Positions 14,403 to 63,285 of a stretch of DNA of 64,000 nucleotides are shown one piece after another. The notes under the pieces are model-generated. The model did not search any database. It was not told the origin of the DNA and was given only the letters and a program-made list of their open reading frames with translations. Numbering within the stretch: the first letter of the stretch is position 1; each line of letters opens with the position of its first letter. Source of the DNA: Gavia stellata (taxonomy: Eukaryota; Chordata; Aves; Gaviiformes; Gaviidae). The stretch covers positions 1,426,001 through 1,490,000 of the forward strand of contig NW_026776913.1 in assembly GCF_030936135.1 (NCBI RefSeq). Reading direction: 5' to 3'. The position numbers were made by a program, and so were the translations under genes.

Positions 14403-14425
14403 TTGCTGCCTCTGGGCATGGGGAC

Positions 14426-27716: not shown

Positions 27717-27739
27717 AGCCCCAGACCAAGAAACAGCAA

Positions 27740-28675
27740 ATGTCCAACAGCAGCTCCATCACCCAGTTCCTCCTCCTGGCCTTCACAGACACACGGGAGC
27801 TGCAGGTCTTGCACTTCTGCCTCTTCCTGGGCATCTACCTGGCTGCCCTCCTGGGCAATGGCCTCATCATCACCGCCATAGTCTGCGACCACCACCTCCA
27901 CAGCCCCATGTACTTCTTCCTCCTCAACCTCTCCCTCCTTGACCTGGGCTCCATCTCCACCACTCTCCCCAAAGCCATGGCCAATTCCCTCTGGGACACC
28001 AGGGCCATTTCCTACTTGGGATGTGCTGCCCAAGTCTTTTTTTTTCTGTTCTTGATTGTAGGGGAGTATTGTCTTCTGACCATCATGGCCTACGACCGCT
28101 ACATTGCCATCTGCAAACCCCTGCACTACGGGACCCTCCTGGGCAGCAGAGCTTGTGTCCACATGGCAGCAGCTGCCTGGGGCAGTGGGTTGCTCAATGC
28201 TGTGCTGCACACGGCCAATACATTTTCAATACCACCTTGTGAAGGCAATGCCTTGGACCAGTTCTTCTGTGAAATCCCACAGATCCTCAAGCTCTCCTGC
28301 TCAGACGCCTACCTCAGGGAAGTTGGGCTTCTTGTGGTTAGTGTTTCTTTTGCTTTCGGGTGCTTTGTTTTCATTGTTCTGTCCTATGTGCAGATCTTGA
28401 GGGCCGTGCTGAGGATCCCCTCTGAGCAGGGACGGCTCAAAGCCTTTTCCACGTGCCTCCCTCACCTGGCGGTGGTCTCCCTGTTCCTCAGCACTGGCAT
28501 ATTTGCCTACCTGAAGCCCCCCTCCATCTCTTCCCCATCCCTGGACCTGGTGGTAGCAGTTCTGTACTCGGTGGTGCCTCCAGCAGTGAACCCCCTCATC
28601 TACAGCATGAGGAACGTGGAGCTGAAGGAGGCCCTAAGGAAACTGATGCAATGGACATTTCTCCATCAACAATAA
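27740..28675 (+). CDS. Olfactory receptor, OR14-like (gene C), intact
   Basis: The gene encodes a 311-residue odorant receptor GPCR. The start at MSNSSS is as in its paralogues, 23 bases after a predicted 3' splice site. Motifs: NSS at 3-5, LLGN 37-40, PMYFF 56-60, MAYDRYIAIC 116-125, KAFSTCLPHL 234-243 and NPLIY 284-288, ending RKLMQWTFLHQQ. TM3 differs most from its sisters (FFLFLIVGEYCLL at 101-113, where A, B, D and E keep SAEF), the region that shapes the odour-binding pocket in this family. The gene has its own AATAAA 200 bases downstream. The ligand is unknown. Confidence 0.95.
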   Translation: MSNSSSITQFLLLAFTDTRELQVLHFCLFLGIYLAALLGNGLIITAIVCDHHLHSPMYFFLLNLSLLDLGSISTTLPKAMANSLWDTRAISYLGCAAQVFFFLFLIVGEYCLLTIMAYDRYIAICKPLHYGTLLGSRACVHMAAAAWGSGLLNAVLHTANTFSIPPCEGNALDQFFCEIPQILKLSCSDAYLREVGLLVVSVSFAFGCFVFIVLSYVQILRAVLRIPSEQGRLKAFSTCLPHLAVVSLFLSTGIFAYLKPPSISSPSLDLVVAVLYSVVPPAVNPLIYSMRNVELKEALRKLMQWTFLHQQ

Positions 28676-32135: not shown

Positions 32136-33413
32136 CCAGGAGGAAAAGAAGGTTATCAGAAGTAGTCAACATGGATTCACCAAGAAAAGTCATGTCTGAC
32201 CAATCTGATAGCCTCCTACGATGACATGTCTGGATGGATAGATGCGGGGAGGGCAGTGGATGTTGTCTGCCTTGGCTTCAGCAAGGCTTTCGACACCGTC
32301 TCCCACATCATCCTCAGAGGCAAGCGTAGGAAGTGTGATGGAATGGACAGTGGGGTGGATTTGGAACTGGCTGATAGATAGAGCTCTGAGGGTTGTGATT
32401 AGTGGCCCAGAGTCTAGTTGGAGGTCTGTCACAAGTGGCGTTCCTCAGGGGTCAGTACTGGGTCCAGTCCTGTTCAATATATTCAGCAATGACCTGGATG
32501 AAGGGATAGAGTGTGCCCTCAGCAAGTTTGCTGATGACACAAAACTGGGAGGAGTGGCGGACACAGTGGAAGGTTGAGCTGCCATTCAGCGTGACCTGGA
32601 CAGGCTGGAGAGTTGGGCAGAGAGGAACAAGATGAAATTCAGCAAAGGCAAGTGTAGGGCACTGCACCGGGGGCGGAATAACCCCCTGCATCAGCACAGG
32701 TTAGGGGCTGAGCTGCTGGAGAGCAGCTCTGTGGAAAGGGACCTGGGAGTCCTGGGGGACAACAGGATGACCACGAGCCACCAATGTGCCCTTGGGGCCA
32801 AGGAGGCCAATGGCATCCTGGGCTGCATCCAGAAGAGTGTGGCTAGGAGGGCGAGGGAGGTTATCCTCCCCCTCTACTCTGCCCTGCTGAGGCCGCATCT
32901 GGAGTGCTGTGTCCAGTTCTGGGCTCCCCGGTTCAAGAAGGACAGGGAGCTGCTGGAGAGGGTCCAGCAAAGGGCTACGAAGATGATTAGGGGAGTGGAA
33001 CATCTTTCTTAGGAGGAAAGGCTGAGGGACTTGGGTCTTTCTAGTCTGGAGAAGAGAAGACTGAGGGGGATCTTATCACTGCTTAGAAATAGTTAAGGGG
33101 TGGGTGCCAGGAGGATGGGGCCAGTCTTTTTTCAGTGGTGCCCAGTGACAGGACAAGAGGTAATGGGCACAAACACGGTCATAGGAAGTTCCGACTACAC
33201 ATGAGGAGGAACTTCTTTCCTTTGAGGGTGTCAGAGCCCTGGCACAAGCTGCCCAGAGAGGTTTTGGAGTCTCCTTCTCTGGAGATATTCAAAACTCACG
33301 TGGAAGCATTCCTGTGCAATCTGCTGTAGGTGAACCTCCTCTGGTGGGGGGGTTGGACTAGATGATCTCCAGAGGTCCCTTGCAACCCCTCTCATTCTGT
33401 GATTCTGTGATTT
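32136..33413 (+). mobile_element. CR1 LINE, reverse transcriptase to 3' end
   Basis: This is the best-kept CR1 of the window. It has [52 protein letters not shown] (the catalytic YADD equivalent appears as FADD), [38 protein letters not shown] and a clear 3' end with GGTTGGACTAGATGATCTCCAGAGGTCCCTTGCAACC and ATTCTGTGATTCTGTGATT. One in-frame stop is seen near 32575 and another near 33010. Confidence 0.9.
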
Positions 33414-39221: not shown

Positions 39222-40274
39222 TTAATACAACCAAGAAAAGCTAAAAACCAAAGAAACCAAACCTAACAACCTACCAAAGAGAGTCTGGGCATGTAATGAG
39301 TTATGTGACAAGTGATATGCAGAAGAAGATGGGCAGTTCATTGCTGCTTCTGAAAAGCAACCAGTCATCAGTTTCCTTAGGGCATCCTTGAGCTCCTGGT
39401 TCCTCATGCTGTAGATGAGGGGGTTCACTGCTGGAGGCACCACCGAGTACAGAACTGCCACCACCAGGTCCAGGGATGGGGAGGAGATGGAGGGGGGCTT
39501 TAGGTAGGCAAACATGATAGTGCTGATGAACAGGGAGACCACAGCTAGGTGAGGGAGGCATGTGGAAAAGGCTTTGTGCCGTCCCTGCTCAGAGGGGATC
39601 CTCAGCACGGTCCTCAAGATCTGCACATAGGACAGCACGATGAAAACAAAACACCCAAAAGCAAAAGAAACACTAACCACAATAAACCCAACCTCCCTGA
39701 GGTACAAGTCTGAGCAGGAGAGCTTGAGGATCTGTGGAATTTCACAGAAGAACTGGTCCACAGCATTGCCTTGGCAGAGTGGTAGTGAAAATGTATCGGC
39801 TGTGTGCAGCACAGCATAGAAAAAAATACTGCCCCAGGCAGCTGCTGCCATGTGGACACAAGCTCTGCTGCCCAGGAGGGACCCGTAGTGCAGGGGTTTG
39901 CAGATGGCAATGTAGCGGTCGTAGGCCATGATGGTGAGAAGATAAAACTCTGCTGACATGAAAAGGACAAACAGAAAGACTTGGGCAGCACATCCTGCAA
40001 AGGAGATGGCCCTGGTGTCCCAGAGGGAATTGGCCATGGATTTGGGGACAGTGGTGGAGATGGAGCCCAGGTCGATGAGAGAAAGGTTGAGAAGGAAGAA
40101 GTACATGGGGGTGTGGAGGTGGTGGTCGCAGGCTATGGCGGTGATGATGAGGCCATTTCCCAGGAGGGCAGCCAGGTAGATGCCCAGGAAGAGGCAGAAG
40201 TGCAAGAGCTGCAGCTCCCGCGTGTCTGCGAATGCCAGGAGGAGGAACTGGGTGATGGAGCTGCTGTTGGACAT
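39222..40274 (-). CDS. Olfactory receptor, OR14-like (gene D), intact mosaic copy
   Basis: The gene encodes a 350-residue odorant receptor GPCR. The MSNSSS start matches the rest of the array. Motifs: NSS 3-5, LLGN 37-40, PMYFF 56-60, MAYDRYIAIC 116-125, KAFSTCLPHL 234-243 and NPLIY 284-288, then the same 50-residue tail as gene B. TM4 carries a private change (GSIFFYAVLHTAD where A, B and C have GSGL(L/F)NAVLHTAN). The coding end and 3' flank follow gene B, but the leader just before the ATG (SPQTKRQK in frame) and the entire intron follow gene C. The acceptor is altered from GACAG to CATAG two bases further on, still a usable YAG. The ligand is unknown. Confidence 0.95.
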   Translation of the reverse strand: MSNSSSITQFLLLAFADTRELQLLHFCLFLGIYLAALLGNGLIITAIACDHHLHTPMYFFLLNLSLIDLGSISTTVPKSMANSLWDTRAISFAGCAAQVFLFVLFMSAEFYLLTIMAYDRYIAICKPLHYGSLLGSRACVHMAAAAWGSIFFYAVLHTADTFSLPLCQGNAVDQFFCEIPQILKLSCSDLYLREVGFIVVSVSFAFGCFVFIVLSYVQILRTVLRIPSEQGRHKAFSTCLPHLAVVSLFISTIMFAYLKPPSISSPSLDLVVAVLYSVVPPAVNPLIYSMRNQELKDALRKLMTGCFSEAAMNCPSSSAYHLSHNSLHAQTLFGRLLGLVSLVFSFSWLY

Positions 40275-40296
40275 TTTCTGTCTCTTGGTCTGGGGG

Positions 40297-42076
40297 CTAT
40301 GTCCAAAAAAGGAAAAAACAGGAAAAATTAGGACAGATTTCTCTGAGAAAACCCACTCCATTTTTCATCACAACGCCACGCAGTTGGAATACCTTTCCAT
40401 TCTCTAGTTTGAGCTGGCTGAGTGTGCTGTGAGGAGCAGGAGCTCTGCCCTTCTGTTGCTGAGGAGTCAGCTTTGCTCTGCTGCAGTGGGTACATGGGAG
40501 CTGACTTGTGACATCTCTGATGTTCACAGGGGATGTCAGATGTAATCCATCTTTCATGGAAAAGTTCAATATCTGCACTCATGACATGGAAGAACGTGGG
40601 CTGTGAAAGAGAGGCTCAGCATGACTTTCTTATAACTTTCTCTGCGTTTTTTGACAGGGCTGCAGTGTACATCAGTCCTTTTCCCATCTGCCCTGTGTTT
40701 TCATTTTGCCGCCTTGAAGACGACTTCACACACAAATTACTCTTTTAAAAAAAAACCCTAAACCTGGACTCTGATGAGACCAGAGGAGTCCTGTTTCAAA
40801 GGACAGCTCTGCAAACTCTTCTCCAGCCCAGCCCAGAGGTGGAGGTGTGATGGAGAGGGCAGGACACGACCCCTCCCAGAGAGAAGCAACTGACTCTGCG
40901 AGGAGAGTGCCGACCCCCAAGGAAAGGCTCCGCACTCCCGAGGATCCCACAGCAGAGCTGCGCCTTTCTGGGGGGCAGCTTGCAAGCCCTGCAGGACAGG
41001 CAAAGCAGAGACTCGGGGGTCCCTCCGATGGGAGGTTCTACAGAGAGAGTCAGCTCATTGCCCCGCAGACAGTGCCCAGCAGACATCTGCAGGGAAACAC
41101 AGAAAGAGAGCTGCCTGAGCGCACCCTCCCCCTGTGCTTGTTTGCAGTGTCCTCCCAACCCCATCCCTGTCTCTGCTGCCTGCAGCTGTCCCTGCCAGGA
41201 GCTGGTTCTCTGTCCCCTGTGTCTCCTCCCTGGCAGTGCTCACAGAGCCCATCCCACCCGCTGCCTGCTCAGCTCTGCCCTGCAGAGCCCTCCCTGCAGC
41301 AGGACACTGCCCAGGGGCATCTCTGGGTGTGCAGGCTCTGAGGGGAACATCAGACCAGCCCTGGCGAGGCTGGAAAAGTGACACTGATGCTGTCTGTGAC
41401 CACGGCATGGTGATTTCCAATACTCCCCGCTTTATTCACCTCTAAGAGGGACAGACTTGGAATTTCAGTGCCTCCTCCGGAAATGAGAGATTAATTCTAT
41501 GTGCCATCGCCCACCCAGACAACCCAGAGGAGAAGAGTGAAAGACCAGGATCCTTCCCTTTCAGGCAGCCCCTGCCTTGCTGTGCTTCCTGAAAAGTCTC
41601 CTGGGAAGATCCTGCAGTGATGTGGAGCTGTGAGCAGCCCTGACCCACACAGCACCCTCTCAACAGCAGAAGCACCCTGCCATTGCACTGGTCTCTCCTT
41701 CCACCCCAGCTTCTCCCCACAGCGCCGTGGGGAGCTCCCCGGGCAGGCTGAGTGCTGACCCTGGCAGGCGGCAGAGTCCCTGCCCCAGCACCCAGCCCCG
41801 GGGGTGCAGGGACCCTGCTCGGAAGGACAGCCCTGGGCACCCCTGGCTGCACACCCACCTTCACACCCTGCAGCCGTCCCTGGCAGAAGGCAGCCCTCAT
41901 GCCCTGTCCCTCTGATGGTGCAGCAGGGAAGCCCTGCTCTGTAGCACCTCCTTCTCCTCTACACCAGAGAACATGCGGCACTTCTTCCTGAAAGCTCTCA
42001 GAGTTTGTGGGATGTGCCATCATTAGGAGATCTGTCCATGAACTGTACCTAAATTGCCCCACACCCAGAGACTTAC
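40297..42076 (-). other. Predicted 5' UTR intron of receptor D
   Basis: The donor ACACG|GTAAGT on the minus strand (GT at 42076-42075) and the acceptor ACATAG at 40297 give 1780 bases. It is a near-identical inverted copy of the gene C intron (1779 bases). No gene inside; open frames here are mirrored in C and are noncoding. Confidence 0.65.
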
Positions 42077-42470
42077 CGTGTCAAGGGCTGTGAAGATTTC
42101 TCCTCCAGTGAGCTCGCCTCTGTCCTCCCACCCCAGACTGCCTTTAACCTCTCTCTGCCTTGATCCTCTCCCCTCGGTGCCTGCAGGCAGTACCCTCAGC
42201 CCTGCTGCGCTGTGCAGAGGAGCTGCTCCTGGGCAGAGCTGTCTCTCCTCAGCGCTGCCCGCTTGCCATGAGCTCCCTCCATCCCAGGAGCCCGGCCCAG
42301 CTCAGCAGCAGAGGAGCAGCCCAAGGCGGCACTTTCTCTGCCCCTCGGGGCTCCCCCCAGGGGTCCCTGGGGCTCCAGGGGAACCTGCTGTGAAACAGGC
42401 TGGAGCAATCACTGAGGTTCCCTCCCGCAGCTGGGGAGAGACGCTTCTTCCCAGCACTGACATTTCTCCT
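42077..42470 (-). promoter_or_regulatory. Predicted noncoding exon 1 and promoter region of receptor D
   Basis: The conserved module ends at 42077 with CAGCCCTTGACACG before the donor. The EBF-like TCCCTGGGGC lies at 42364-42373, 288 bases before the donor as in E and within one base of B. GC-rich, no TATA box. Promoter activity is inferred from conservation. Confidence 0.5.
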
Positions 42471-43469
42471 ATCAGGAAAAGAGTCAGGCATGAGAATCAC
42501 GTTTTGTTTGTTTCATCATTAGACAGGACACCAGGAAGGTGACAGGCAGGGATCTAATTTCTGCAAGCTGGGGGCATGTCTTCAGTTGACTGAATTCAGA
42601 CATTTCATTCTGGGTTTGTAGTCCTAGGGATAGAAAGACATCCAGAATTCTTTTGTCCAAGCCATCTCTCTCCTCTGAAGCAAAGCCTTTGCACACCCAG
42701 GCTCTTGGACACTTGATAACAGGTTCCCCTATGGCAAGTATGACCCTGCCTGATGCCACAGCTGTGGTGCTTCAGCCCAGATGTGCAGCAATGCCCTCAG
42801 CCAGGGCCACGGACAGGACAAACTGGAGCCGTTACTGTGGGAGACAGAGCTGTGACCTGATGGCACAGCTCAGTCCAGCTGGTCTTCAAGGACAGCATCC
42901 TCCAAGCTCTGCAATAACCCAGACCGCAACTCAAAGGAAACTAGAAAGGGCACCATAATGAGTGTTTACTACTTCAGGAGCAGTTAAAGAAGAAAACCAA
43001 GGTACTCTGTGGCCACTGCTGAGTTTCATAAGAGCAGGTGTAGACAGAGCTGAGATTCTCTCTTATCCTCTTTGCCTCAGTCTTCCCCAGCAAGGTCTCG
43101 CAGGCCTCTGTGGCTCAGGGCAGGACCCTGAAGGAGATCAGCCAGTGGTGGATGGGGATCAAGTCAGGGGTCACCTGAGCAAACGCAACCCTTACCAGTC
43201 TATGGGACAAGTGGGGCGGCATCCCAGGGAGCTGAGAGGGCAAGCCAATCTCACAGTGATGACACTCTCCATCATCTTTAGAGGGTGATGGAGGCTGGGG
43301 GGACTCTCTGATGACTGGCAGTACCCAAACATGGCACGCACCTTTCAAAAATGCACAACAGATGAGCAGTGAAACTGAAGGCTCTGCCCCAGAGTGTGTC
43401 CATTCACTCAGATCCCATTTCTGGGTGGCTGAAAAAGGTGGTGTCTGGTTTTACTCAGGGTAGTGTGTG

Positions 43470-43905
43470 TCTCGCCATCCTCTTTGCTTTCTGTGATGAA
43501 AGGACAGGATTGCTGGGCGTGGGGAGAGCAGTGGTTGTCTTTTAACCTGGAAGTCAGTGAAGTTTTCAGCATCATCTCCCACATTATTCTTGTGCCCAAG
43601 TTAGGATATGATGGCCTGCGTGGGTGAGTCAGTAGATGGCTAAAACCACAGTCGGATGGTGGGGCTCAGAGGGATGAGGTCAATGTGTGGTACTCTGCCT
43701 GGAGGCATCTAGCTAAAAGGGTCCTGCAAGAGTCTGTCGTGCTACCTGCTCTGTTTCATGTGTTTTTAATGACCTGCAGGAGATGAGAGAGTTCATTTTC
43801 ATAGCATTTGTAGATGCAACTATATTGAGGAGAGCAGAAACTATACTGCAGTCCACAGCTGCCATCCCAAAGGACATAGACAGGCCAGAGGGATGGGCAA
43901 AAAGT
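43470..43905 (+). mobile_element. CR1 LINE, old reverse transcriptase fragment
   Basis: Relics of the CR1 ORF2 [12 protein letters not shown] region are seen (GTCAGTGAAGTTTTCAGCATCATCTCCCACATTATTCTTGTG), then GATATGATGGCCTGCGTGG and an eroded NDLxE / FVDATI block. It is interrupted at 43912 by the 3' end of a younger CR1 on the other strand. The same nested pair occurs at 51690-53122. Confidence 0.6.
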
Positions 43906-43911
43906 AGAAAA

Positions 43912-45080
43912 ATAAAATCATAGAATCATTTAGGTTGGAAAAGACCTTTAAGACCACCGAGTCCCACTGTTAACCTGACACTTCCATGTCCACCACTAAA
44001 CCAAGTCCCTAAGCGCCACATCTACACATCTTTGAAATACCCCAGGGATGGTGACTTAACCACTTCCCTGCACAGCCTGTTCCTAGGCTTGATAACCCTT
44101 TTGGTGAAGAAATTTTTCCTAATATCCAATCTAAAGCTCCCCTGGCACAACTTGAGGCCGTTTCCTCTTGTCCTATCACTTGTTACCTGGGAAAAGAAAC
44201 CAACACCCACCTCACTACAACCTCCTTTTAGGTAGTTGTAGAGAGCGATAAGGTCTCCCTGAGCCTACTTTTCTCCAGTTCCCTTAGCCATTCCTCATAA
44301 CACTTGTTCTCTGGACCCTTCATCAGCTTCATTGGTCTTTGTTGGACATGCTCCAGCACCTCAATGTCCTTCTTGTAGTGAGGGGCCCAAAACTGAACAC
44401 AGCAGTCGAGGTGCAGACTCACCAGCACCGAGTACAGGGGGACAATCACCTCCGTACTCCTGCTGGCTACAGTATTTCTGGTACAGGCCAGGATGCCGTT
44501 GGCCTTCTTGTCCTCCTGGGCACACTGCTGGCTCATATTCAGCCAGCTGTCAACCAGCACCTCCAGGTCCTTTTCTGCGGGGCAGCTTTCCAGCCACTTG
44601 TCCCCAAGCCTGGAGCGTTGCATGGGGTTGTTGTGACCCAAGTGCAGGACCCAGCACTCGGCCTTGTTGAATCTCATCCAATTGGCCTCGGCCCATCCAC
44701 CCAGCCTGTACAGATCCCTCTGCAGAGCCTTCCGACCCTCGAGCAGATCAACACTCCTGCCCAACTTGGTGTCGTCTGCAAACTTACTGAGGGTGCACTC
44801 GATCCCCTCATCCAGATCGTCCATAAATATATTAAACAAGACCAACCCCAAACCTGAGCCCTGGGGGACACCACTTGTGACCAGCTGCCAACATGACTGA
44901 ACTCCATTCACCACAACCCTTTGGGGCCTGGCCATCCAAGCCATTTTTTTACCCAGCAAAGAGTACCCCCATCCAAGCCATGAGCAGCCAGTTTCTCCAG
45001 GCAAATGCGCTAGGAAACGGTGCCAAAGGCTTTACTTATGTCCAGGTAAACAATACCCACAGCCTTTCCCTCGTCCAATA
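43912..45080 (-). mobile_element. CR1 LINE, 5'-truncated, younger
   Basis: The minus strand has an open frame from 45004 to 44228 with [59 protein letters not shown] and [20 protein letters not shown], then the 3' region and the terminus AAATCATAGAATCATTTAGGTTGG at 43912. The FADD catalytic block is present, but the element lacks ORF1 and the endonuclease. The same copy is at 52125-53122. Confidence 0.9.
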
Positions 45081-45099: not shown

Positions 45100-45965
45100 G
45101 AAGGAGATACAGGTATCAGTAGCTGCAATGGTATCTCTATCTGCAGTGGTATCTGCACCTGTATGGGCACCTGCAATCATCTATGCATCTGCAATCCTCT
45201 CTGTATCTGCAACAGCGTCTCCATCTGCCATGCTAACTGCATCTTCAATGGTTTCTCCATCTGCAATTAAATTTTCTCTGCATCTCCAAAGGTACCTTCC
45301 TCTGAAATGGTATCTCTATCAGCAATGCTACCTCCATCTGCAAGGGCATCTGCAGCACTATCGCGCCTCCAATTTTGTGTACATCTGCTATGGCGTATGC
45401 TCAGAACCTGGAGTGGCATTTGCACCTCTAGTGGCATCTCCATCTGCAATCGCATCCAAAACTGTACGTGTTTCCGCAAGGGCATCTGCAGTGGTATCTG
45501 TGTCTGCCGTGGCATCTACAGTGTCATCTGCTTCTGCAAGGGAATCTGCAGTGGTATCTCTGATGGTATGGGTAGTGTTGTCTCTGCCTGTATTGGTATC
45601 GGTGTCTGTCATGGTGTCTAGATGGGTACCGGTATGTCTAATTGTACCTGCATCTGCGTCTCTTCTGGCATCTGTGCATGTATCTTCAATTGTATTTGTA
45701 GCAGCACCCGTATGTTTAACCCTGCCTCTATCAGTCATGGCACCTCTATCGGTAATGGTATCACGAGCAGTAGCTGTAGTTGTAGGTGTAATGGAATGTG
45801 GGTTTGTGTCTGTGACTGTACTTGTATCTGCGATTGTATGTGTGATTGTATCTTGATCTGTAATTGTATCTGCAATTGTATGTGTAATGATTTGTGTGAC
45901 TGGTCATGTAGCTCTACTTGTGCATGTTATGGTGTCTCCGACTCTAATTGTATCAGTAATTAGAT
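45100..45965. repeat. Minisatellite with an 18-base-type unit
   Basis: Degenerate units such as GGTATCTGCATCTGCAATGG and, toward the end, TGTATCTGCAATTGTATG run the whole length in one orientation. Frames stay open over long distances (for example 242 codons from 45128) simply because of the repeat. It directly follows a CR1 5' end and ends against an LTR start at 46029. Kin of 33835-34425. Confidence 0.75.
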
Positions 45966-46028: not shown

Positions 46029-46170
46029 TGTGTGCTGGTTTTGGCTGGGATAGAGTTAATTTTCTTTGTGGCAGCATGTATGGTGCTATGCTTTGGATTT
46101 CTAATGACAACAGCTTTGATAACACACCGATGGTTTAGTTATTGCTGAACAGCGCTTACTGTCATGAAAA
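46029..46170 (+). mobile_element. ERVL-type LTR 5' fragment
   Basis: It begins TGTGCTGGTTTTGGCTGGG and continues ATAGAGTTAATTTTCTTTGTGGCAGC, GGTGCTATGCTTTGGATTT, GATAACACACCGATGGTTTAG and TTATTGCTGAACAGCGCTTAC, the 5' half of an avian ERVL-type LTR. What follows is not recognised as the same LTR. It is a fossil fragment. Confidence 0.65.
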
Positions 46171-47810: not shown

Positions 47811-48830
47811 TTATGTAGAAACACAGTAAAGGCTAATAACAACAAAGATAATGAAAACAAAAAGGACAAAACAGCAAACAAAGGACAGTCCAGCAATGGG
47901 ATACATGGGAAACATCCCTAAAATCACTTTCTTCATGGCATCCTTGAGGTCCCGGTTCCTCATGCTGTAGATGAGGGGGTTCAAGGCTGGGGTCACCACC
48001 GAGTACAGCATTGCCATCACTGAATCCAGAGCTGCAGAGGAGATGGAGGGGGGCTTGAGGTAGGCGAATGTGCCAGTACAGGTAAACAGGGAGACCACGG
48101 CCAGGTGAGGGAGGCACGTGGAAAAGGCTTTGTGCCGTCCCTGCTCAGAGGGAATCCTCAACACGGCCCTCAAGATCTGCACATAGGACAGCAAGATGAA
48201 AATAAAACAACCCCAGAATAGAAAAGCACTAAAACTGAAAGGCCCAGCTACCTGGAGGTAGGAGTCTGAGCAGGAGAGCTTGAGGACTGGGGGAATTTCA
48301 CAGAAGAACTGGTCCAAGGCATTGCTTTCGCAAAGTGGTAGTGAAAATGTATTGGTAGTGTGAAGAAGAGAATTGAGAAACCCACTGCCCCAGGCAGCTG
48401 TTGCTATTTTGGCACAAGCTCTGCTGCCCAGGAGGGTCCCGTAGTGCAGGGGTTTGCAGATGGCAATGTAGCGGTCGAAGGCCATGACAGTGAGAAGAAA
48501 AAATTCTGCTGACATCAAAAATAAAACAAAAAAGACTTGGGCAGCACATCCTGAGTAGGAGATGGCCCTGGTGTGCCAGAGGGAATTGGCCATGGCTTTG
48601 GGGAGAGTGGTGGAGACGAAGCCCAGGTCGATGAAGGAAAGGTTGAGGAGGAAGAAGTACATGGGGCTGTGGAGGTGGTGGTCGCAGGCTATGGCGGTGA
48701 TGATGAGGCCATTGCCCAGGAGGGCAGCCAGGTAGATGCCCAGGAAGAGGCAGAAGTACAAGAGCTGCAGCTCCCGTGTGTCTGTGAATGCCAGGAGGAG
48801 GAACTGGGTGATGGAGCTGCTGTTGGACAT
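47811..48830 (-). CDS. Olfactory receptor, OR14-like (gene E), intact, with extra hydrophobic tail
   Basis: The gene encodes a 339-residue odorant receptor GPCR, the most diverged of the five. The start at MSNSSS follows a predicted 3' splice site by 22 bases, although the frame is open for another 78 codons upstream. Motifs: NSS 3-5, LLGN 37-40, PMYFF 56-60, MAFDRYIAIC 116-125 (F replaces Y), KAFSTCLPHL 234-243 and NPLIY 284-288. TM5 differs strongly (VAGPFSFSAFLFWGCF). After the normal end of TM7 and helix 8, residues 312-336 form an uninterrupted uncharged hydrophobic run (IAGLSFVCCFVLFVFIIFVV and on), absent from A and C. It may arise from read-through into a T-rich former 3' UTR. The ligand is unknown. 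Confidence 0.95.
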   Translation of the reverse strand: MSNSSSITQFLLLAFTDTRELQLLYFCLFLGIYLAALLGNGLIITAIACDHHLHSPMYFFLLNLSFIDLGFVSTTLPKAMANSLWHTRAISYSGCAAQVFFVLFLMSAEFFLLTVMAFDRYIAICKPLHYGTLLGSRACAKIATAAWGSGFLNSLLHTTNTFSLPLCESNALDQFFCEIPPVLKLSCSDSYLQVAGPFSFSAFLFWGCFIFILLSYVQILRAVLRIPSEQGRHKAFSTCLPHLAVVSLFTCTGTFAYLKPPSISSAALDSVMAMLYSVVTPALNPLIYSMRNRDLKDAMKKVILGMFPMYPIAGLSFVCCFVLFVFIIFVVISLYCVST

Positions 48831-48853
48831 TTGCTTTCTGTGGGCATTGGGAC

Positions 48854-50292
48854 CTGTCCAAGGTGAAAAAGACAATGACAATTGAGGACAGACTTCTGTG
48901 AGGAAAATAACATGCCATTTGTCATAGAAATCCCCATCCCTGTGATGAATGAGGAACAAGCCAGCGCATTCCCCAGCCCTGTCAATTGAATGGCATGGTG
49001 CCTGACAGTTTAAAACAGAGCTTGGGCACCTACTTCCCATGAAGACACTTCCAGGGAAGGACACACAGAGTCAGTGCCAGAACAGAAGCTGACCTGTACC
49101 CCCATCCATACCCCAGAGAGCAAGAGCATCACGGAAGGGTGGGGAAACAGGGAAGAAAACTGCAATGCTTCAAAAAAATGAGGTGAGGTCAGAAAGGCAG
49201 AGGGGCGTGCTGTGAAGCCTTCTCCTTACCCAGCTGTGCTCACCACCTCTCACATGGTGTCACTGTAGGGCAGGTGGTTTTAGTCTCTTTTTTGTGTACT
49301 GCACCCCAAGACACATCCACCTGGAGGGCAAGCTGCCCAGGGCATGACTCATAACGGGGACCCCATGGCCATGAAGGCAGAGGCTCTGCTGGGTAGGAGA
49401 GGAGACCAGGGGGTTGCTCTGGGGAAGGTATCTGCACTCCAGGGCATGGCAGGGAGGTGCCCGAATAGCCCTGCCATGGCATTTCTGGTAGCAGCTCCTT
49501 CTCATTCCCTGCCCTTGTCTCTGCTGGAGATGTCCCTGCTGGAAGCTAATTCCCTGTCCCCATGTCTCTCTCCTACCATCTCCCACAGACCCCATCCCAC
49601 TCACCGTGTGCTCAGCTCTGCCCTACAGGCACCTCCTGGCACCAGGGTACTGCCCAGGGGCACCTCTGTCTGTGCTGGAGCTACGGAGCAGATCAGACAA
49701 GAGCTAATGAGAAGTGGGGTCTCAGGGCCTTCCCCAGAACATAGAAAAAAATTCCCATCTCCCACTGCCCTCCCAGACAACCAAGAGGAGAAAACTCAAA
49801 CCACCGGCAGCTTCCCTTTCAGGTAACCGCCACATAGACCTTCCTTTTGAAAAGTGCCCTTGGAAATGTCCTTGGGGGTATGTGGAGCTGTGAGCAGCCC
49901 TGACCCAGGCAGCACCCTCGCAACAGCAGAAGGACCCTGCCCTGTGCTGAAGGGCCACCCACAGTGCCGTGGGGAGCTCCCCAGGAAAGGCTGAGTGCTG
50001 ACCCTGGCAGGCGGCAGAGTCCCTGCCCCAGCACCCAGCCCCGGGGGTGCAGGGACCCTGCTCGGAAGAACAGCCCTGGGCACCCCTGGCTGCACACCCA
50101 CCTTCACACCCTGCAGCCGTCCCTGGCAGAAGGCAGCCCTCATGCCCTGTCCCGCTGATGGTGCAGCAGGGAAGCCCTGCTCTGGGGCACCTCCTCCTCC
50201 TCTATACAGGAGTGACATTCCTGGGTACCATGCCAGCTTTACGAGAGCCCTCCATGAACTATAGCTGCATTGCCCTGCAGCCAGAGACTTAC
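48854..50292 (-). other. Predicted 5' UTR intron of receptor E
   Basis: The donor ACACG|GTAAGT (minus strand, GT at 50292-50291) and the acceptor TTGGACAG at 48854 give 1439 bases. Parts match the D intron (for example 49320-49740 and 49800-50200) with gaps. No gene is seen inside. Confidence 0.6.
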
Positions 50293-50690
50293 CGTGTCAA
50301 GGGCTGTGAAGATTTCTCCTCCAGTGAGCTCGCCTCTGTCCTCCCACCCCAGACTGCCTTTAACCTCTCTCTGCCTTGATCCTCTCCTCTCGGTGCCTGC
50401 AGGCAGTGCCCTCAGCCCTGCTGCGCTGTGCAGAGGAGCTGCTCCTGGGCAGAGCTGTCTCTCCTCAGCGCTGCCCGCTTGCCATGAGCTCCCTCCATCC
50501 CAGCAGCCCGGCCCAGCTCAGCAGCAGAGGAGCAGCCCAAGGCGGCACTTTCTCTGCCCCTCGGGGCTCCCCCCAGGGGTCCCTGGGGCTCCAGGGGAAC
50601 CTGCTGTGAAACAGGCTGGAGCAATCACTGAGGTTCCCTCCCGCAGCTGGGGAGAGACACTTCTTCCCAGCACTGACATTTCTCCTATCA
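50293..50690 (-). promoter_or_regulatory. Predicted noncoding exon 1 and promoter region of receptor E
   Basis: It is nearly the same as the D module. The exon ends at 50293. The EBF-like TCCCTGGGGC is at 50580-50589, 288 bases from the donor. Inferred from conservation only. Confidence 0.5.
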
Positions 50691-51689
50691 GGAAAAGAGT
50701 CAGCCATGAGAATCACGTTTTGTTTGTTTCATCATTAGACAGGATACCAGGAAGGTGACAGGCAGGGATCTAATTTCTGCAAGCTGGGGACACGTCTTCA
50801 GTTGACTGAATTCAGACATTTCATTCTGGGTTTGTAGTCCTAGGGATAGAAAGGTATCCAGAATTCTTTTGTCCAAGCCATCTCTCTCCTCTGAAGCAAA
50901 GCCTTTGCACACCCAGGCTCTTGGACACTTGATAACAGGTTCCCCTATGGCAAGTATGACCCTGCCTGATGCCACAGCTGTGGTGCTTCAGCCCAGATGT
51001 GCAGCAATGACCTCAGCCAGGGCCACGGACAGGACAAACTGGAGCCGTTACTGTGGGAGACAGAGCTGTGACCTGATGGCACAGCTCAGTCCAGCTGGTC
51101 TTCAAGGACAGCATCCTCCAAGCTCTGCAATAACCCAGACCGCAACTCAAATGAAGCTAGAAAGGGCACCATAATGAGTGTTTACTACTTCAGGAACAGT
51201 TGAAGAAGAAAACCAAGGTACTCTGTGGCCACTGCTGAGTTTCATAAGAGCAGGTGTAGACAGAGCTGAGATTCTCTCTTATCCTCTTTGCCTCAGTCTT
51301 CCCCAGCAAGGTCTCGCAGGCCTCTGTGACTCAGGGCAGGACCCTGAAGGAGATCAGCCAGTGGTGGATGGGGATCAAGTCAGGGGTCACCTGAGCAAAC
51401 GCAACCCTTACCAGTCTATGGGACAAGCGGGGCGGCATCCCAGGGAGCTGAGAGGGCAAGCCAATCTCACAGTGATGACACTCTCCATCATCTTTAGAGG
51501 GTGATGGAGGCTGGGGGGACTCTCTGATGACTGGCAGCACCCAAACATGGCACGCACCTTTCAAAAATGCAAAACAGATGAGCAGTGAAACTCAAGGCTG
51601 TGCTCCAGAGTGTGTCCATTCACTCAGATCCCATTTCTGGGTGGCTGAAAAAGAAGGTGACTGGTTTTACTCAGGGTAGTGTGTGTCTC

Positions 51690-52120
51690 GCCATCCTCTT
51701 TGCTTTCTGTGATGAAAGGACAGGATTGCTGGGCGTGGGGAGAGCAGTGGTTGTCTTTTAACCTGGAAGTCAGTGAAGTTTTCAGCATCATCTCCCACAT
51801 TATTCTTGTGCCCAAGTTAGGATATGATGGCCTGCGTGGGTGAGTCAGTAGATGGCTAAAACAACAGTCGGATGGTGGAGCTCAGAGGGATGAGGTCAAT
51901 GTGTGGTACTCTGCCTGGAGGCATCTAGCTAAAAGGGTCCTGCAAGAGTCTGTCGTGCTACCTGCTCTGTTTCATGTGTTTTTAATGACCTGCAGGAGAT
52001 GAGAGAGTTCATTTTCATAGCATTTGTAGATGCAACTATATTGAGGAGAGCAGAAACTATACTGCAGTCCACAGCTGCCATCCCAAAGGACATAGACAGG
52101 CCAGAGGGATGGGCAAAAAA
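51690..52120 (+). mobile_element. CR1 LINE, old reverse transcriptase fragment (duplicate)
   Basis: It is the duplicate of 43470-43905, with the same relics and the same interruption by a younger CR1. Confidence 0.6.
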
Positions 52121-52124
52121 GTAG

Positions 52125-53122
52125 AAACATAAAATCATAGAATCATTTAGGTTGGAAAAGACCTTTAAGACCACCGAGTCCCACCGTTAACCTGACGCTA
52201 CCATGTCCACCACTAAACCAAGTCCCTAAGCGCCACATCTACGCATCTTTGAAATACCCCAGGGATGGTGACTTAACCACTTCCCTGCACAGCCTGCTCC
52301 TAAGCTTGATAACCCTTTTGGTGAAGAAGTTTTTCCTAATATCCAATCTAAAGCTCCCCTGGCACAACTTGAGGCTGTTTCCTCTTGTCCTATCACTTGT
52401 TACCTGGGAAAAGAGACCAACACCCACCTCACTACAACCTCCTTTCAGGTAGTTGTAGAGAGCGATAAGGTCTCCCTGAGCCTCCTGTTCTCCAGTTCCC
52501 TTAGCCATTCCTCATAACACTTGTTCTCTGGACCCTTCATCAGCTTCATTGGTCTTTGTTGGACACGCTTCAGCACCTCAATGTCCTTCTTGTAGTGACG
52601 GGCCCAAAACTGAACACAGCAGTCGAGGTGCAGACTCACCAGCACCGAGTACAGGGGGACAATCACCTCCTTACTCCTGCTGGCTACAGTATTTCTGGTA
52701 CAGGCCAGGATGCCGTTGGCCTTCTTGGCCACCTGGGCACACTGCTGGCTCATCTTCAGCCAGCTGTCGATCAACACCCCCAGGTCCTTTTCTGCGGGTC
52801 ATCTTTCCAGGCACTCGTCCCCAAGCCTGTAGTGTTGCATGGCGTTGTTGTGACCCAAGTGCAGGACCTGGCACTTGGCCTTGTTGAACCACATAGAGTT
52901 GGCCTTGGCCCATCAATCCAGCCTGTCCAGATCCCTCTGCAGAGCCTTCCGACCCTCAAGCAGATCAACACTCCTACACAACTTGGTGTCATCTGCAAAC
53001 TTGCTGAGGGAGCACTCGATCCCCTCATCCAGATCGTCCATAAATATATTAAACAAGACCAACACCAAACCTGAGCCCTGGGGGACACCACTTGTGACCG
53101 GCTGCCAACTGGACTGAACTCC
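52125..53122 (-). mobile_element. CR1 LINE, younger (duplicate, cut by ERVL edge)
   Basis: It is the duplicate of 43912-44905, with the same 3' terminus at its low-coordinate end and FADDT-region landmarks near 53000. Several stops are private to this copy. It ends at 53122 where the retroviral LTR starts, whereas copy 1 continues about 175 bases further. Confidence 0.85.
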
Positions 53123-53742
53123 TGTCGTGGTTTAAGCCCAGCCGGACTAATCACCACACAGCCGCTCACTCACTCCCCACCAGGTGGGGTGGGGGAGAGA
53201 ACCAGAAGAGTAAAAGTGAGAAAACTCGTGGGCTGAGATAAAAACAGTTTAATAGGTAGAGCAAAGAACACCGCGCGGAGAAGCAAAGCGAAAGAAGGAA
53301 TTAATTCACCACTTCCCGTCGGCAGGCAGGTGTTCAGCTATCTGCAGGGAAGCAGGGCTCTATCACGCGTAGCGGTTGCTCGGGAAGACAAACGCCATTA
53401 CTCCGAATGTCCCCACCTTCCTTCTTCCTCCCCCAGCTTGACATACTGAGCATGATGTCATATGGTATGGAATATCCCTTTGGTCAGTTGGGGTCAGCTG
53501 TCCCGGCTGTGTTCCCTCCCAACTTCCCGTGCACCCCCAGCCCACTCACTGGTGGGGTGGGGTGAGGAGCAGAAAAGGCCTTGGCTCTGTGTGAGCCCTG
53601 TTCAGCAGTAACTAAAACATTCCTGCTTTATCAACATTGTTTCCAGCCCAAATCCAAAACACAGCCCCATACAATCCAAAACACAGCCCCATACTAGCTG
53701 CTATGAAGAAAGTTAACCCCATCCCAGCCAAAACCAGCACAT
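53123..53742 (-). repeat. ERVL LTR (3' side of the provirus)
   Basis: Read on the minus strand it starts TGTGCTGGTTTTGGCTGGGA at 53742 and ends CCGGCTGGGCTTAAACCACGACA at 53123, a TG...CA LTR. It contains the GACGTCAT-like/CATGCTCAG region and a GGTGGGGAGTGAGTGAGCGG stretch. It is in direct orientation with the LTR at 56818-57390. Confidence 0.8.
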
Positions 53743-54119
53743 TCTCCACCCCTTATTCCATACCATTTACATCATGCTCAGGTCTCACACCATCCAAAAC
53801 GTTCTCATTCCCTATCATCGCCCTTTCCATCCTTTGATATAGTACACAGATATCCTTCCCTTAGTCTATGGACCACCCCTGTAAAATATTTCTAAAATGT
53901 CCATAAATGTCCATTGACTTCATGTAGTCCATAACTTCGGGCTCCATCTGTTATGGTGGTCACTCAGGAGAGAAGAGGTGTTGTATTGCATGGAGTTATT
54001 GGGCACCACAGCTAGCTCAGGTCGGGTCACTGCTGCACTTGCAATGCTTCTTGTAAGGCTTGTCCTCCATTGGTTCAGGTGGTTCCTGCTGTAGTAATTC
54101 CTGTAACATAGAACTCAAA

Positions 54120-55716
54120 TCATGGATTAGTTTCACCCAGAATTAAATCACCTTGAGGTACACACTGGACTTCCCCATTCTTCTGCATTACCCACCAAGT
54201 GCACCCAGGTCCTTGAGCAAAAATAACCCGGCGAATAGGTTTACCTTTTCCTGAGGAAGGAATAACCCAGACTGTTTTTCCCAGCAAGTTCCTTATATGT
54301 ACTACGGGAATCTTATCTCCTTCCACAGTGCGCAGGGGTTTTGATTGGGCAGGGCCAGGTCGACTGGCAGAGCCTCTAGTGTTAACTAGCCAAGTGGCTT
54401 CTGCTAAATGTGTATCCCAATGCTTAAATGTCCCAGCACCCATTGCTTTCAGTGTTGTTTTTAACAGTGCGTTGTATCGTTCCATTTTCCCGGAGGCTGG
54501 TGCATGGTAGGGGATGTGATACACCCAGTCAATGCCATGCTCCTTGGCCCAGGTGTTAATGAGGTTGTTTCGGAAATGAGTCCCGTTGTCTGATTCAATT
54601 CTTTCAGGGGTGCCGTGTCGCCATAAAATTTGCTTTTCAAGGCCCAAGATAGTGTTCCGGGCAGTGGCATGGGTCACGGGGTATGTTTCCATCCATCCGG
54701 TAGTTGCTTCCACCATTGTAAGCACATGCTGCTTCCCGTGGGGGGTTCGTGGTAGTGTGATATAATCAACCTGCCAGGCTTCCCCGTATTGATATTTCAG
54801 CCATCGCCCTATACCAAAAAGGCTTTAGCCGCTTAGTGTGTTTGATTATGGCACATGTTTCACATTCATGGATAACCTGTGCAATGGCATCAATAGTCAA
54901 GTCCACCCCTCGATCACGAGCCCATTGGTATGTTGCATCCCTTCCTAAATGTCCTGATGTGTCATGGGCCCATCGAGCTATAAATAGCTCACCCTTATGT
55001 TCCCAATCTAGATCCACCTGAGCCACTTCAATTCTAGCAGCTTGGTCCACCCGCTCATTGTTTCGATGTTCTTCAGTGGCACGACTCTTGGGTATGTGAG
55101 CATCTACATGACGTACTCTTACAACCAGGTTCTCTACCCGAGCAGCAATATCTTGCCATAATTCAGCAGCCCAGATGGGCTTACCTCTGCGCTGCCAGTT
55201 GCTCTGCTTCCATTGCTGTAGCCACCCCCACAGGGCATTTGCCACCATCCATGAGTCTGTATAGAGATAAAGTACTGGCCATTTCCCTCGTTCAGCAATA
55301 TCTAAAGCCAGCTGAATGGCTTTCACCTCTGCAAACTGACTCGATTCACCTTGTCCTTCAGCAGTTTCTGCAACTTGTCGCGTAGGACTCCACACAGCAG
55401 CTTTCCACCTTCGATGTTTTCCCACAATACGACAGGATCCATCTGTAAACAGGGCATATTGCTTCTCAGTCTCTGATAATTCATTATACAGAGGGGCCTC
55501 TTCAGCACGAGTCACCTCCTCTGGTGACACTCCGAAGTTTCGGCCCTCTGGCCAGTCCATGATCACTTCCAGGATTCCCGGGCGGTCGGGGTTTCCCATC
55601 CGAGCTCGTTGCGTTATCAGTGCAACCCACTTACTCCATGTAGCCTCGGTTGTGTGATGCGTAGAGGGGATCTTCCCTTTGAACATCCAGCCCAGCACAG
55701 GCAATCGAGGGGCCAA
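54120..55716 (-). mobile_element. ERVL pol: RNase H and integrase region
   Basis: RNase H landmarks: ALFTDGSCRIVG, SSQFAEVKAIQLAL, LYTDSWMVANALWGWLQQWK and VRHVDAHIPKS. The integrase zinc-binding HHCC region (HDTSGHLGRDATYQWAR, HECETCAIIKHTK) is followed by core blocks ERIESDNGTHFRNNLI and YHIPYHAPASGKMERYN and a C-terminal GPGCTWWVMQKNGEVQCVPQ. The assignment to ERVL follows from these blocks. Fossil sequence, part of the element 53123-57390. Confidence 0.85.
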
Positions 55717-55848
55717 AAGGAGCTGTGCTTCAGTAACAACTACTTCCGAAGCAGCTCAAATTCCTTCATATGCTGCTAATATTTCTTTTTCAGTTGGAGT
55801 GTAACGGGCTTCAGATCCCCTATATCCCCGGCTCCAAAACCCTAGAGG

Positions 55849-56817
55849 TCAACCTCGAGTCTCCCCAGGTGCTTTCTGCCAGAGGCTCCAGGTGGGGCCG
55901 TTATCCCCGGCTGAGGTGTAAAGTACATTTTTCACACCTTGTCCTGTCCGGACCGGCCCAAGCGCTACTGCACGAACTATCTCCTGTTTAATTTGTTCAA
56001 AGGCTTGCTGCTGTTCAGGGCCCCATTCAAAGTCGTTCTTCTTCCGGGTCACTCGATAGAGAGGGCTCACGATCAGACTATAACTTGGAATATGCATTCT
56101 CCAGAAACCCACAACACCTAAGAAAGCTTGTGTTTCCTTTTTGTTAGTTGGTGGAGACATGGCTGTTATTTTATTGATCACATCCATTGGGATATGGCGA
56201 CGCCCATCCTGCCATTTTATTCCTAAAAACTGAATTTCCTGTGCAGGCCCTTTGACCTTACTTTGTTTTATAGCAAAACCAGCTTTCAGGAGAATCTGGA
56301 TTATTCTTCTCCCCTTCTCAAACACTTCCTCCGCTGTGTTGCCCCACACAATGATGTCCTCAATATACTGCAGGTGTTCCGGAGCTTCGCCTTGTTCCAG
56401 TGCACTCTGTATCAGCCCATGACAAATGGTAGGACTATGTTTCCACCCCTGGGGCAGTCGATTCCAGGTGTACTGGATACCCCTCCATGTGAAAGCAAAC
56501 TGTGGCCTGCACTCTGCTGCCAGAGGGATCGAGAAGAACGCATTGGCGATATCTATTGTTGCATACCATTTGGCAGCCTTTGACTCCAGTTCATATTGAA
56601 GCTCTAGCATGTCTGGTACGGCAGCACTCAGCGGCGGTGTGACTTCGTTCAGGCCTCGATAGTCCACTGTTAACCGCCACTCTCCGTTAGATTTTTGCAC
56701 GGGCCATATGGGACTCTTAAAGGGTGAATGAGTCTTACTGATCACTCCTTGACTTTCCAGTTGATGGATCAACTTATGGATGGGAACCAGGGAGTCTCGA
56801 TTGGTGTGATATTGTTG
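55849..56817 (-). mobile_element. ERVL pol: reverse transcriptase region
   Basis: Blocks in order: SPIWPVQKSNGEWRLTVDYR, WYATIDIANAFFSIPLA, YTWNRLPQGWKHSPTICHGL, the polymerase YIED region (normally YIDD) and TNKKETQAFLGVVGFWRMHI. This is ERVL-type rather than gamma- or beta-retroviral. Fossil sequence, part of the element 53123-57390. Confidence 0.85.
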
Positions 56818-57390
56818 CCGCTCACTCACTCCCCCCTGGTGGGGTGGGGGAGAGAACCAGAAGAGTAAAGGTGAGAAAACTCGTGGGCTGAGATAAAAAC
56901 AGTTTAATAGGTAGAGCAAAAAACACTGTGTGGAGAAGCAAAGCAAAAGAAGGAATTCATTCACCACTTCCCGTCGGCAGGCATGTGTTCAGCTATCTGC
57001 AGGGAAGCAGGGCTCCATCATGCATAGCGGTTGCTCGGGAAGACAAATGCCACAAATGTCCCCACCTTCCTTCTTCCTCCCCCAGCTTGACATACTGAGC
57101 ATGATGTCATATGGTATGGAATATCCCTTTGGTCAGTTGGGGTCAGCTGTCCCGGCTGTGTCCCCTCCCAACTTCCCGTGCACCCCCAGCCCACTCACCG
57201 GTGGGGTGGGGTGAGGAGCAGAAAAGGCCTTGGTGCTGTGTGAGCCCTGCTCAGCAGTAACTAAACCATCCCTGCTTTATCAACATTGTTTCCAGCCCAA
57301 ATCCAAAACACAGCCCCATACAATCCAAAACACAGCCCCATACTAGCTGCTATGAGGAAAGTTAACCCTATCCCAGCCAAAACCAGCACA
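56818..57390 (-). repeat. ERVL LTR (5' side of the provirus)
   Basis: It matches 53158-53742 in direct orientation, beginning at its high-coordinate end with TGTGCTGGTTTTGGCTGGGA. It lies between pol and the inverted-repeat arm that starts at 57391. Confidence 0.8.
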
Positions 57391-58035
57391 GCTGGTCACC
57401 AGAGAGAGGAGATCAGCATCTCCCCCTCCGCTGCCCTCCTTGAGGAAGTTGCAGACTGCGATGAGCTCACCCCTCAGCCTTCTCTTCTCCAAGCTGAAAC
57501 AAATCAAGTGACCTCAGCCACTGCTCCTAATTATGCCCTCGAGACCTTTCACCACCTTGGTTGCCCTTCCCTTGACACACTTTAATACTTTGGTGTCCTT
57601 CTTCTACTGAGGTGCCCCAAACAGCACACAGCACTTGAGGTGGGGCCGTACCAGTGCAGTGCGGAGTGGGACAATCACCTCCCTCCACCAGCTAGCGATG
57701 CTGTGCTTGATGCACCCCAGGACACGGGTGGCCCTTTTGGCTGCCACGGCACACTATTGACTCCTATTCAATTTGCCTTGAACCCAAAAACCCCAGATCT
57801 CTTTCTGCAGGGCTGCTCTTCAGCCTCTCCTCCCCCAGTTTGTATGTATAACTCGGATTACTGCATCCCAGGTGGAGAATCCAGCTCTTGCTCCTGTTAA
57901 ATTTGATGTGGTTGGTGATTGCCCAGCTCTCCAGTCTATCCAGTTCTCTCTATAAGGCCTCTCCACCCTCAATCAAATCCAGACCTCCTCCTATTTCACC
58001 ATCATCTGCAAACTTACTGAATTTATTGTATTACT
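57391..58035 (-). mobile_element. CR1 LINE, 3' part, cut by ERVL edge
   Basis: It is the mirror of about 9694-10338. The CR1 stops mid-element at 57391, where the left-arm copy continues another 267 bases to its natural 3' end. Confidence 0.85.
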
Positions 58036-59308: not shown

Positions 59309-59522
59309 CACTTTCTGTCCCCTCCCAAGCCCTTGCCCACCTCCCCAGGCCTTTGCAGGGGAGGGAGGTTGGAGAGGTAGCCTTGATGCTGTACCAGCAC
59401 TGCTAAGCAAGAGCCAAAACAGCGGTGTGGTAGCAACAGCACTGTGGCTACAAATATAAAGCTGAGCACCATGAGGGCTGCTATGGGGAACGTTAACTCC
59501 ACCCCAGCCAGGGCCAGGACAT
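59309..59522 (-). mobile_element. ERVL-type LTR fragment (mirror copy)
   Basis: It is the mirror of 8207-8420. On the minus strand it begins TGTCCTGGCCCTGGCTGGGG at 59522. Old fossil fragment. Confidence 0.6.
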
Positions 59523-61333: not shown

Positions 61334-61899
61334 CAAATGAGTACACCTGTACTCGGCGCTGGTGAGGCCGTACCTTGAATACTGTGTTCAGTTTTGGGCC
61401 CCTCACTACAAGAAGGACATTGAGGTGCTGGAGTGTGTCCAGAGAAGGGCGAGAAAGCTCCTGAGGTGTCTGGAGCACAAGTCTTATGAGGAGCGGCTGA
61501 GGGAACTGGGGTTGTTCAGTCTGCAGAAGAGGAGGCTGAGGGGAGACCTCATTGCTCTCTACAATTACCTGAAAGGGGGTTTCAGAGAGGTGGGTGTTGG
61601 CCTCTTCTCCCAAGTGACTAGTGACAGGACAAGAGGAAATGGCCTCAAGTTGCACCAGGGGAGGTTTAGACTCGATATTAGAAAAAATTTCTTTACTGAG
61701 AGAGTGGTAAGGCAATGGAATAAGCTGCCCAAGGAAGTGCTGGAGTCACCATCCTTGGAGGTTTTCAAGTAACGTGTGGATGAGGCATTGTGAGACATGG
61801 TTTAATGGGCATGGTGGTGTTTGTAGGTTGATGGTTGGACTTGATGATCTTACAGGTCTTTTCCAACCTTAGTGATTCTGTGATTCTGTGATTCTGTGA
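61334..61899 (+). mobile_element. CR1 LINE, younger 3' end (mirror copy)
   Basis: It is the mirror of 5831-6395. The frame 61362-61772 reads [20 protein letters not shown] through [20 protein letters not shown] and [16 protein letters not shown], less damaged than the left copy. It ends GTGATTCTGTGATTCTGTGATTCTGTG. Confidence 0.9.
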
Positions 61900-62109: not shown

Positions 62110-63285
62110 CATAGACATTCCCCTGCCCTGATACAAAGACCATTTCTAAAGTCGTCGTTTCAGATGCAGACTGCCTGGGCAAAGGCCCTTTCCATTATTC
62201 TCCAGTTTTCTCCTTCCCTTTCTCTTTGTTCGTTCTGGTACCTCTCACCTACGCTGCTGCTGCTTTGAGCTTCAGGGACTAAAAGCCGTCCTGTCCTTCA
62301 GTAGTCTAATTGTCTCTCTTTAAGAGCCAACTCTTTAATTATGTTGATATTTACTTTTTTGTATCTCCCTATCTAAAGCATTTCTCATGAGATTATCCCT
62401 TGTAGAAAGTCAGCCTCATGAGACCTATCTTCTACTTTATGTGTGGTTGAGGAGTGCGTTTTAATGTTTATGAAACTTTTCCTTGCTTTCCTTCTCTTTG
62501 CTTGCAAAGAGGAACATTCCCTCTGTGCCGGTGTGCAGGCAGTTCTCTAAGGAAAGCAGGTGGGAGGTGGTGCAATGGCTCTGTAACATTCAGCTCCCTG
62601 AGTCCTGAGAAGTCTGACGGAAGGCAAAGTGAGGCAAGTCCCAGGTGGCCAAGGACAGAAATGGTGGGGCTGGGGAGGTGAGGAGCAAGGGTGTCCATGC
62701 AGTGTCAGGCCTCAAGGGACTGCTTTTCCTCCTCGACACTCTGGGTCAATATCAACTGGAGAATGCTGCTGTCACCTCTTCTTTAAACTGAAAGGAATAA
62801 AATGTAACATTTTAAAAAATGTATTTTTTATTAGGGGCACTTTGAAATCTTCCTCTTTAACTGCACTATGAAATGATTCCAATTAGCTGTACAAGTCTTG
62901 AAGACTTGAAGAAAGTGACATGCAGGGAAATAGCTCCGTAGGGCTTTCTGTGTTTTAATGAGCCCCACAGTGTATTTGGGCCTGTAATCCATGAACCTCT
63001 GATGATGAGAGTGATCAAGCCTCTCAAGAAGTCAAAGGCAGAAGCAAAAGCTAAAGAACCTTGAAGCATTAATGGGTCCCACTGAGGGCCATTACTGACA
63101 GAGCCTCCCCAGGGACTCGTTAGAGCCGATAACTGGAGGCTGTGATTGCAGGGAGGCAAAGGCACTGTGCAGGTGGCTGTAATGCTGAGAAAGCCCTTGG
63201 ATTGTTAGATGAAGCAGAAAGGCCAAACCCTGAGCCCCAGGCCCTGGGCAGGCAGAGCTGGTCCCTCACGTGTGGCTCAGGGCTG
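62110..63285 (+). repeat. Low-copy repeat unit, copy 6
   Basis: It is the mirror of 4443-5615. It ends near GGTCCCTCACGTGTGGCTCAGGG, where the left arm carries about 211 extra bases. Noncoding. Confidence 0.6.

Follow-up and report, generated by a model that had tools for sequence, protein, structure and literature searches.

Junction between two loci and their empty sites

The question raised by this locus was how one endogenous retrovirus (ERV) came to stand between two host sequences that were each also present, uninterrupted, elsewhere in the same region. The window, i.e., the whole 64,000-nucleotide stretch of Gavia stellata DNA analyzed (positions 1,426,001 to 1,490,000 of the forward strand of contig NW_026776913.1, assembly GCF_030936135.1), contained an internally deleted ERV on the minus strand at 53123-57390, flanked on the left by a duplicate (A') of one locus (A) and on the right by an inverted copy (B') of another (B). 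We lean towards the explanation that two ERVs inserted at two loci and were later joined by homology-based ectopic recombination. This interpretation was plausible and partly supported, since ectopic recombination leaves the pattern observed here: two empty sites, outer ends reading TG and CA, and ancestral 5-mers that do not match.

Self-comparison of the window delimited both flanks: (i) A (42015-44905, plus strand) and A' (50231-53122, plus strand) shared 96.75% identity over 2892 bp (93/2891 differences; 89.2-99.2% across 250-bp windows), the match ending at 53122 within a CR1 whose sense strand was the minus strand, and (ii) B (4443-10338, plus strand) and the inverted B' (63284-57391, minus strand) shared 96.8% identity over 5901 bp (175/5889 differences; 92.8-99.6% across 250-bp windows), the match ending at 57391, likewise within a CR1. 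Both edges were unambiguous: locus A continued with ATTCAC where the ERV started with TGTCGT, and locus B had CCTATC where the ERV ended with AGCACA. A preliminary description of this DNA had taken the left flank for a duplicate of the locus running on at 44905/44906 and the right flank for an inverted copy of the locus at 10338/10339; both assignments held to the exact base, and the observed junction, with the element between two loci, was confirmed.

The CR1 reading frame of locus A ran on over 44905/44906 to 45031, and one further CR1 copy (32350-33081) aligned over this point, with a 6-residue gap upstream. The CR1 reading frame of locus B passed over 10338/10339, where five CR1 places aligned: 61341-61781, 6386-6042, 44261-44028, 18184-18369, and 33051-33329, the first two being each other's arm copies. 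Since the CR1 frame crossed each site, as in other CR1 copies of the window, both empty sites looked ancestral. The duplicated 5-mer was absent at both of them; nothing of the element was visible in A or B, whereas a joint with a long terminal repeat (LTR) was present in both A' and B'. The earlier claim of two different empty sites in the window, one for each flank, was thus borne out.

The same applied to the earlier claim that the element had no target-site duplication (TSD). The left 5-mer ACTCC (53118-53122, plus strand) was the same as in locus A, and the right 5-mer GCTGG (57391-57395, plus strand) was the same as in locus B; each was original to its own locus. No TSD was found at the flanks of the element, the numbers of matching positions being 0, 2, and 0 for k = 4, 5, and 6, respectively. 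Two ways of reconciling these ends with a single normal insertion were rejected: (i) decay of a once-perfect TSD, because both 5-mers had kept the sequence of their respective loci and, at 2.6% divergence, at least three of five positions would differ with a probability of about 1.7e-4, and (ii) insertion into a ready-made A'/B' junction, which would have been expected to leave a TSD and would have required an exact hit.

Two minor features were observed near these loci. About 210 bp of the left arm (4233-4442) had no counterpart in the right arm (63282-63284), where homology between the arms picked up again at 63282 and reached the window end; a 79% similar sequence at 36580-35983 spanned this point in the left-arm state, so it looked like a deletion in the right arm. 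Directly past the CR1 of locus A, 45112-45888 consisted of imperfect tandem repeats with unit lengths of 12 to 42 bp.

Structure and family of the element

The element was composed of three parts, all on the minus strand: (i) a left LTR (53123-53741, 619 bp, TG...CA), (ii) an internal part (53742-56816, 3075 bp) with reverse transcriptase (RT), RNase H, and integrase zinc and core domains, and (iii) a right LTR (56817-57390, 574 bp) with outer end CA and its inner 38 bp gone. Because the pol domains lay on the minus strand, the right LTR was the 5' LTR and the left one the 3' LTR in the direction of the element. The 38-bp loss was judged against the left LTR, and the outer end of the right LTR agreed with the inner end of the left one; the outer end of the left LTR, which had no second copy for comparison, was called complete only from its TGT start (the right one ended ACA). 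Pfam matches on the element were RVT_1 (7.3e-25), RNase_H (1.9e-20), and rve (1.3e-15), with Integrase_H2C2 (2.5e-5) slightly below its own cut-off, and 381 bp of the internal part lay past the integrase frame. Upstream pol, gag, and the primer site were gone, because RT began at the joint with the LTR. Among four proteins searched against NCBIfam, two had RNase H and transposase matches, all below cut-offs, and two had none; Rfam gave no match. In viral contigs, the RT piece gave 15 stretches matching the pattern, none of which was confirmed, and a 37-base LTR pattern gave no match.

The preliminary description had named the element ERVL. ERVL (class III) elements are defined by a 5-bp target duplication and a leucine-tRNA primer site, and their RT would be expected to lie closer to spuma-type than to other retroviral RTs. 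The TG...CA LTRs and a pol with RT, RNase H, and integrase were present, but these features are common to other ERV classes, too. Among the best 60 of 205 PDB matches, RT gave a near tie of 4hkq (5e-42, which we take to be gammaretroviral), 8wus (8e-42), and Pr125Pol 7o0h (3e-41, presumably foamy virus); below 7ksf (1.6e-39), the next entries stood at 6e-23 to 2.5e-19, and entries named HIV-1 were at 1.7e-15 or weaker. The RT matches were compatible with ERVL, while the family name itself was not proven. Related pol was common in birds, the same bird names recurring often among the 120 listed RT relatives.

A second joint, absent from the preliminary description, lay inside the element at 56816/56817, where the truncated LTR was joined non-homologously and in frame to the RT start. 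The RT frame search yielded 1235 proteins at E <= 0.001. The RT start was visible in 65 of the 120 listed relatives, which had other residues in front of it, most often VHRR (33/65) and in a few cases quite different ones. The LTR-derived motif was found in 0/65 of these relatives and in 0/360 fetched proteins, of which the 65 were the informative ones (the olfactory-receptor search and the RNase H piece had each contributed 120 of the 360). This LTR-to-RT fusion could itself be a rearrangement breakpoint; because it was non-homologous, the two sides may have been joined by something other than homologous recombination.

Divergence of the LTRs, arms, and duplication

Comparison of LTR divergence with arm divergence had been proposed as a dating test. 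Non-CpG differences were 14/540 (2.6%) between the LTRs, 136/5708 (2.4%) between the arms B and B', and 73/2785 (2.6%) between the duplicates A and A' (homogeneity p = 0.79); with all sites, the LTRs had 23/574 differences, and the counts for arms and duplication were those given above (p = 0.37). The values were equal, and the test did not separate the models: equal divergences fit two young insertions, but one aberrant integration or one repair event would fit them as well. Some blurring by gene conversion is possible: 250-bp window identities ranged widely in the arms and in the duplication, and part of the DNA to the left of A was 99-100% identical to an inverted copy within 25688-28648.

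The shared part of the LTRs had 16 CpG in the left LTR and 9 in the right one, and in 8/9 of the CpG differences between them the CpG was confined to the left LTR (p = 0.039). This asymmetry was rejected as proof of a hybrid element, because the eight left-only sites formed three clusters. Older LTR fragments at 46031-46159, 8207-8275, and 59453-59521 were 67-75% like the end of the element's LTR, the latter two lying at mirrored places of the inverted arms. Their use for polarizing the LTR differences was also rejected, with 1/5 sites settled.

Proposed recombination between two insertions and its alternatives

The outer joints looked integrase-made because the outer ends read TG and CA, and two such joints in two ancestral sites would imply two integrase-type reactions; the exact stop of the homology blocks at both LTR edges also favored two insertions, as did the frequency of related pol in birds. 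Such a pair of joints usually results from two insertions that later underwent ectopic recombination. From these features we infer the parental insertions, the recombination, and its geometry as follows. Two ERVs of the same family would have inserted separately, one in an A-type CR1 and one in a B-type CR1, the targets being copies or alleles other than the two empty ones observed here. A later homology-based event would have joined A-left, one ERV, and B-right, either by a crossover of inverted-order ERVs between two chromatids or homologues or by break-induced copying. If the A' ERV crossed with an ERV-bearing B allele in inverted order, one event could yield both the mismatched ERV and an inverted B copy 47 kb away; the resulting chain would read empty B, a spacer with A, A', ERV, and inverted B', the empty B surviving on the same chromosome, and the A/A' duplication would be a separate event.

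Several results weigh against such recombination. LTR divergence was no higher than that of the arms or the duplication, though two different elements would often differ more. The CpG asymmetry was gone after merging of sites <=20 bp apart (3 vs 1, p = 0.63), and the older LTR fragments, which covered five LTR differences, agreed at one (left LTR derived) and disagreed at four. No parental insertion or reciprocal product was seen in the window; the 1001 bases past each empty site had no second copy there, the sole match other than to self being a tandem repeat on the right side of A. None of the 120 proteins listed in either of the two relative searches was named from Gavia, so the abundance of ERV partners in the host genome is an assumption. 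The preliminary description had called recombination of two ERVL copies the simplest reading: the empty sites, TG/CA ends, and mismatched 5-mers fit it, but "simplest" was too strong, because the divergences were equal and the LTR-to-pol joint was non-homologous.

In an improbable variant with two insertions, breaks in the pol of the A' element and in the LTR of the B element (which may have been a solo LTR) were followed by end-joining at 56816/56817, so that the rearrangement breakpoint would be the LTR-to-RT fusion itself. The non-homologous nature of this joint and its absence from all 65 relatives with an RT start fit this variant, although annotated proteins would rarely be expected to show an LTR-derived start. 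An arginine codon could be common to the LTR and the relatives' pol at the joint, which makes microhomology possible, the relatives being known as protein only. The unequal CpG counts of the two LTRs point the same way, as does an observed/expected CpG ratio of 0.61 in the 300 bp of pol adjoining the right LTR vs 0.30 in a window over the first part of the LTR; however, the CpG signal lost significance once merged, and CpG was scarce in the left LTR's other half, too (ratio 0.11). Internal deletions of ERVs are, moreover, frequent for other reasons. Taken jointly, the readings with two insertions, whether ended by ectopic recombination or by end-joining, are probable.

It is doubtful that the whole structure came from one event, i.e., one retroviral DNA, or break repair inside ERV DNA, linking A' to the inverted B; if it did, the divergences of the LTRs and of the arms, and perhaps also the LTR-to-RT fusion, would date the same moment of olfactory-receptor cluster remodelling. 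One aberrant integration, in which one viral DNA was joined by its two ends to different target DNAs and the inverted copy was made simultaneously (or, as a variant, one end was joined by integrase and the other by host repair), seems quite improbable: it requires a rare reaction and leaves the internal LTR-to-RT joint unexplained, and both ends here looked normal and exact. The LTR, arm, and duplication divergences were nevertheless equal within error, which for LTRs and arms is the expectation under a single event, and there is precedent in human immunodeficiency virus (HIV) and an avian sarcoma-leukosis virus (ASLV) vector, where aberrant integrations were accompanied by duplications, inversions, and sequence of other chromosomes (PMC5041404). 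An assembly chimera, in which the assembler merged two genuine ERV loci through their common 4.3 kb, is decidedly improbable; the ERV would be the sole sequence common to both parents, and the window was rich in 95-97% duplicates, but the lack of any N in 64 kb with such similar duplicates suggests that long reads were assembled, and these would usually be long enough to cover 4.3 kb. One ordinary insertion with TSD, followed by mutation or an unrelated break at the LTR edge, would need a single insertion only; it is hardly credible, being contradicted by two different empty sites and by unchanged 5-mers in flanks from different loci, and a random break precisely at an LTR terminus would be improbable.

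Comparison with known systems

HERV-K proviruses were reportedly used as indicators of past ectopic recombination by Hughes and Coffin (2001, 2005), who are reported to have relied on TSD mismatch. These recombination markers are primate elements, whereas the element here is avian. The event type is already documented in primates, and the present locus is a new example of it, in a bird. HERV-K loci with odd structure are reported (PMC3625200), and ectopic recombination is cited for five HERV-K proviruses (PMC4422153). The gibbon SERV-K/MER11 provirus 10_73510506-gib is described as having TSDs that do not match, flanks that map to two human chromosomes, and a solo LTR as its reciprocal product (PMC11379458). 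It resembles the element here in the TSD mismatch and in the origin of its flanks from two places, explained there by recombination of two proviruses; it differs in that the reciprocal solo LTR was found, the LTRs clustered discordantly, virus family and host were others, and the gibbon provirus marks a translocation while the loon element marks an inverted duplication.

Recombination of HERV-H copies is described for a t(4;18) translocation (PMC3292815), where dispersed ERV copies likewise recombined and joined two loci, though that event was recent, pathogenic, and interchromosomal. Ty1-mediated rearrangements of yeast, some arising via dicentrics (PMC3102749), share the retroelement at the joint, the duplicated flank, and, in one isolate, the inverted fusion, but they were experimental and in yeast. 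Aberrant retroviral integrations also joined a provirus to rearranged host DNA without the normal short repeat; they differ in having mostly one normal and one aberrant end (PMC5041404), in being caused by a drug or mutant enzyme, and in coming from infected cells. Bird transposable elements are implicated as inversion hotspots (PMC6523648), and a bird-directed literature search, covering titles only, gave no title on an ERV-bridged inverted duplication in a bird.

Olfactory-receptor units of the window

Five repeated units of about 1 kb were open frames of 340-419 residues: 1553-2575, 13350-14510, 27650-28675, 39222-40364, and 47811-49070. The Pfam entry 'Olfactory receptor' was matched by both of the two units scanned. 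In a comparison set limited to the top 120 relatives of a single unit, all five units matched olfactory-receptor proteins (best 81-100%), every best match being from Gavia stellata; one unit had the same sequence as a 14C36-like receptor over 305 residues, and another was 98% identical over 311 residues to a 14J1-like one. As judged from these matches, the window probably lies in an olfactory-receptor cluster. The locus offers a base-exact, datable bird example of an ERV as the joint of a segmental duplication and an inverted repeat in such a cluster. The survival of both empty sites in one window allows the event to be reconstructed, and related genomes can serve to check it. The locus could help show a role of ERVs in the expansion of receptor clusters, which one locus by itself cannot show.

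Another inverted pair, 25688-28648 and 39366-42326, had 94.7% identity, with an olfactory-receptor frame in each copy. About 1 kb of it (40869-41869) was 99-100% identical to the inverted copy within 25688-28648, while the other 250-bp windows were at 88-96%, which suggests recent gene conversion.
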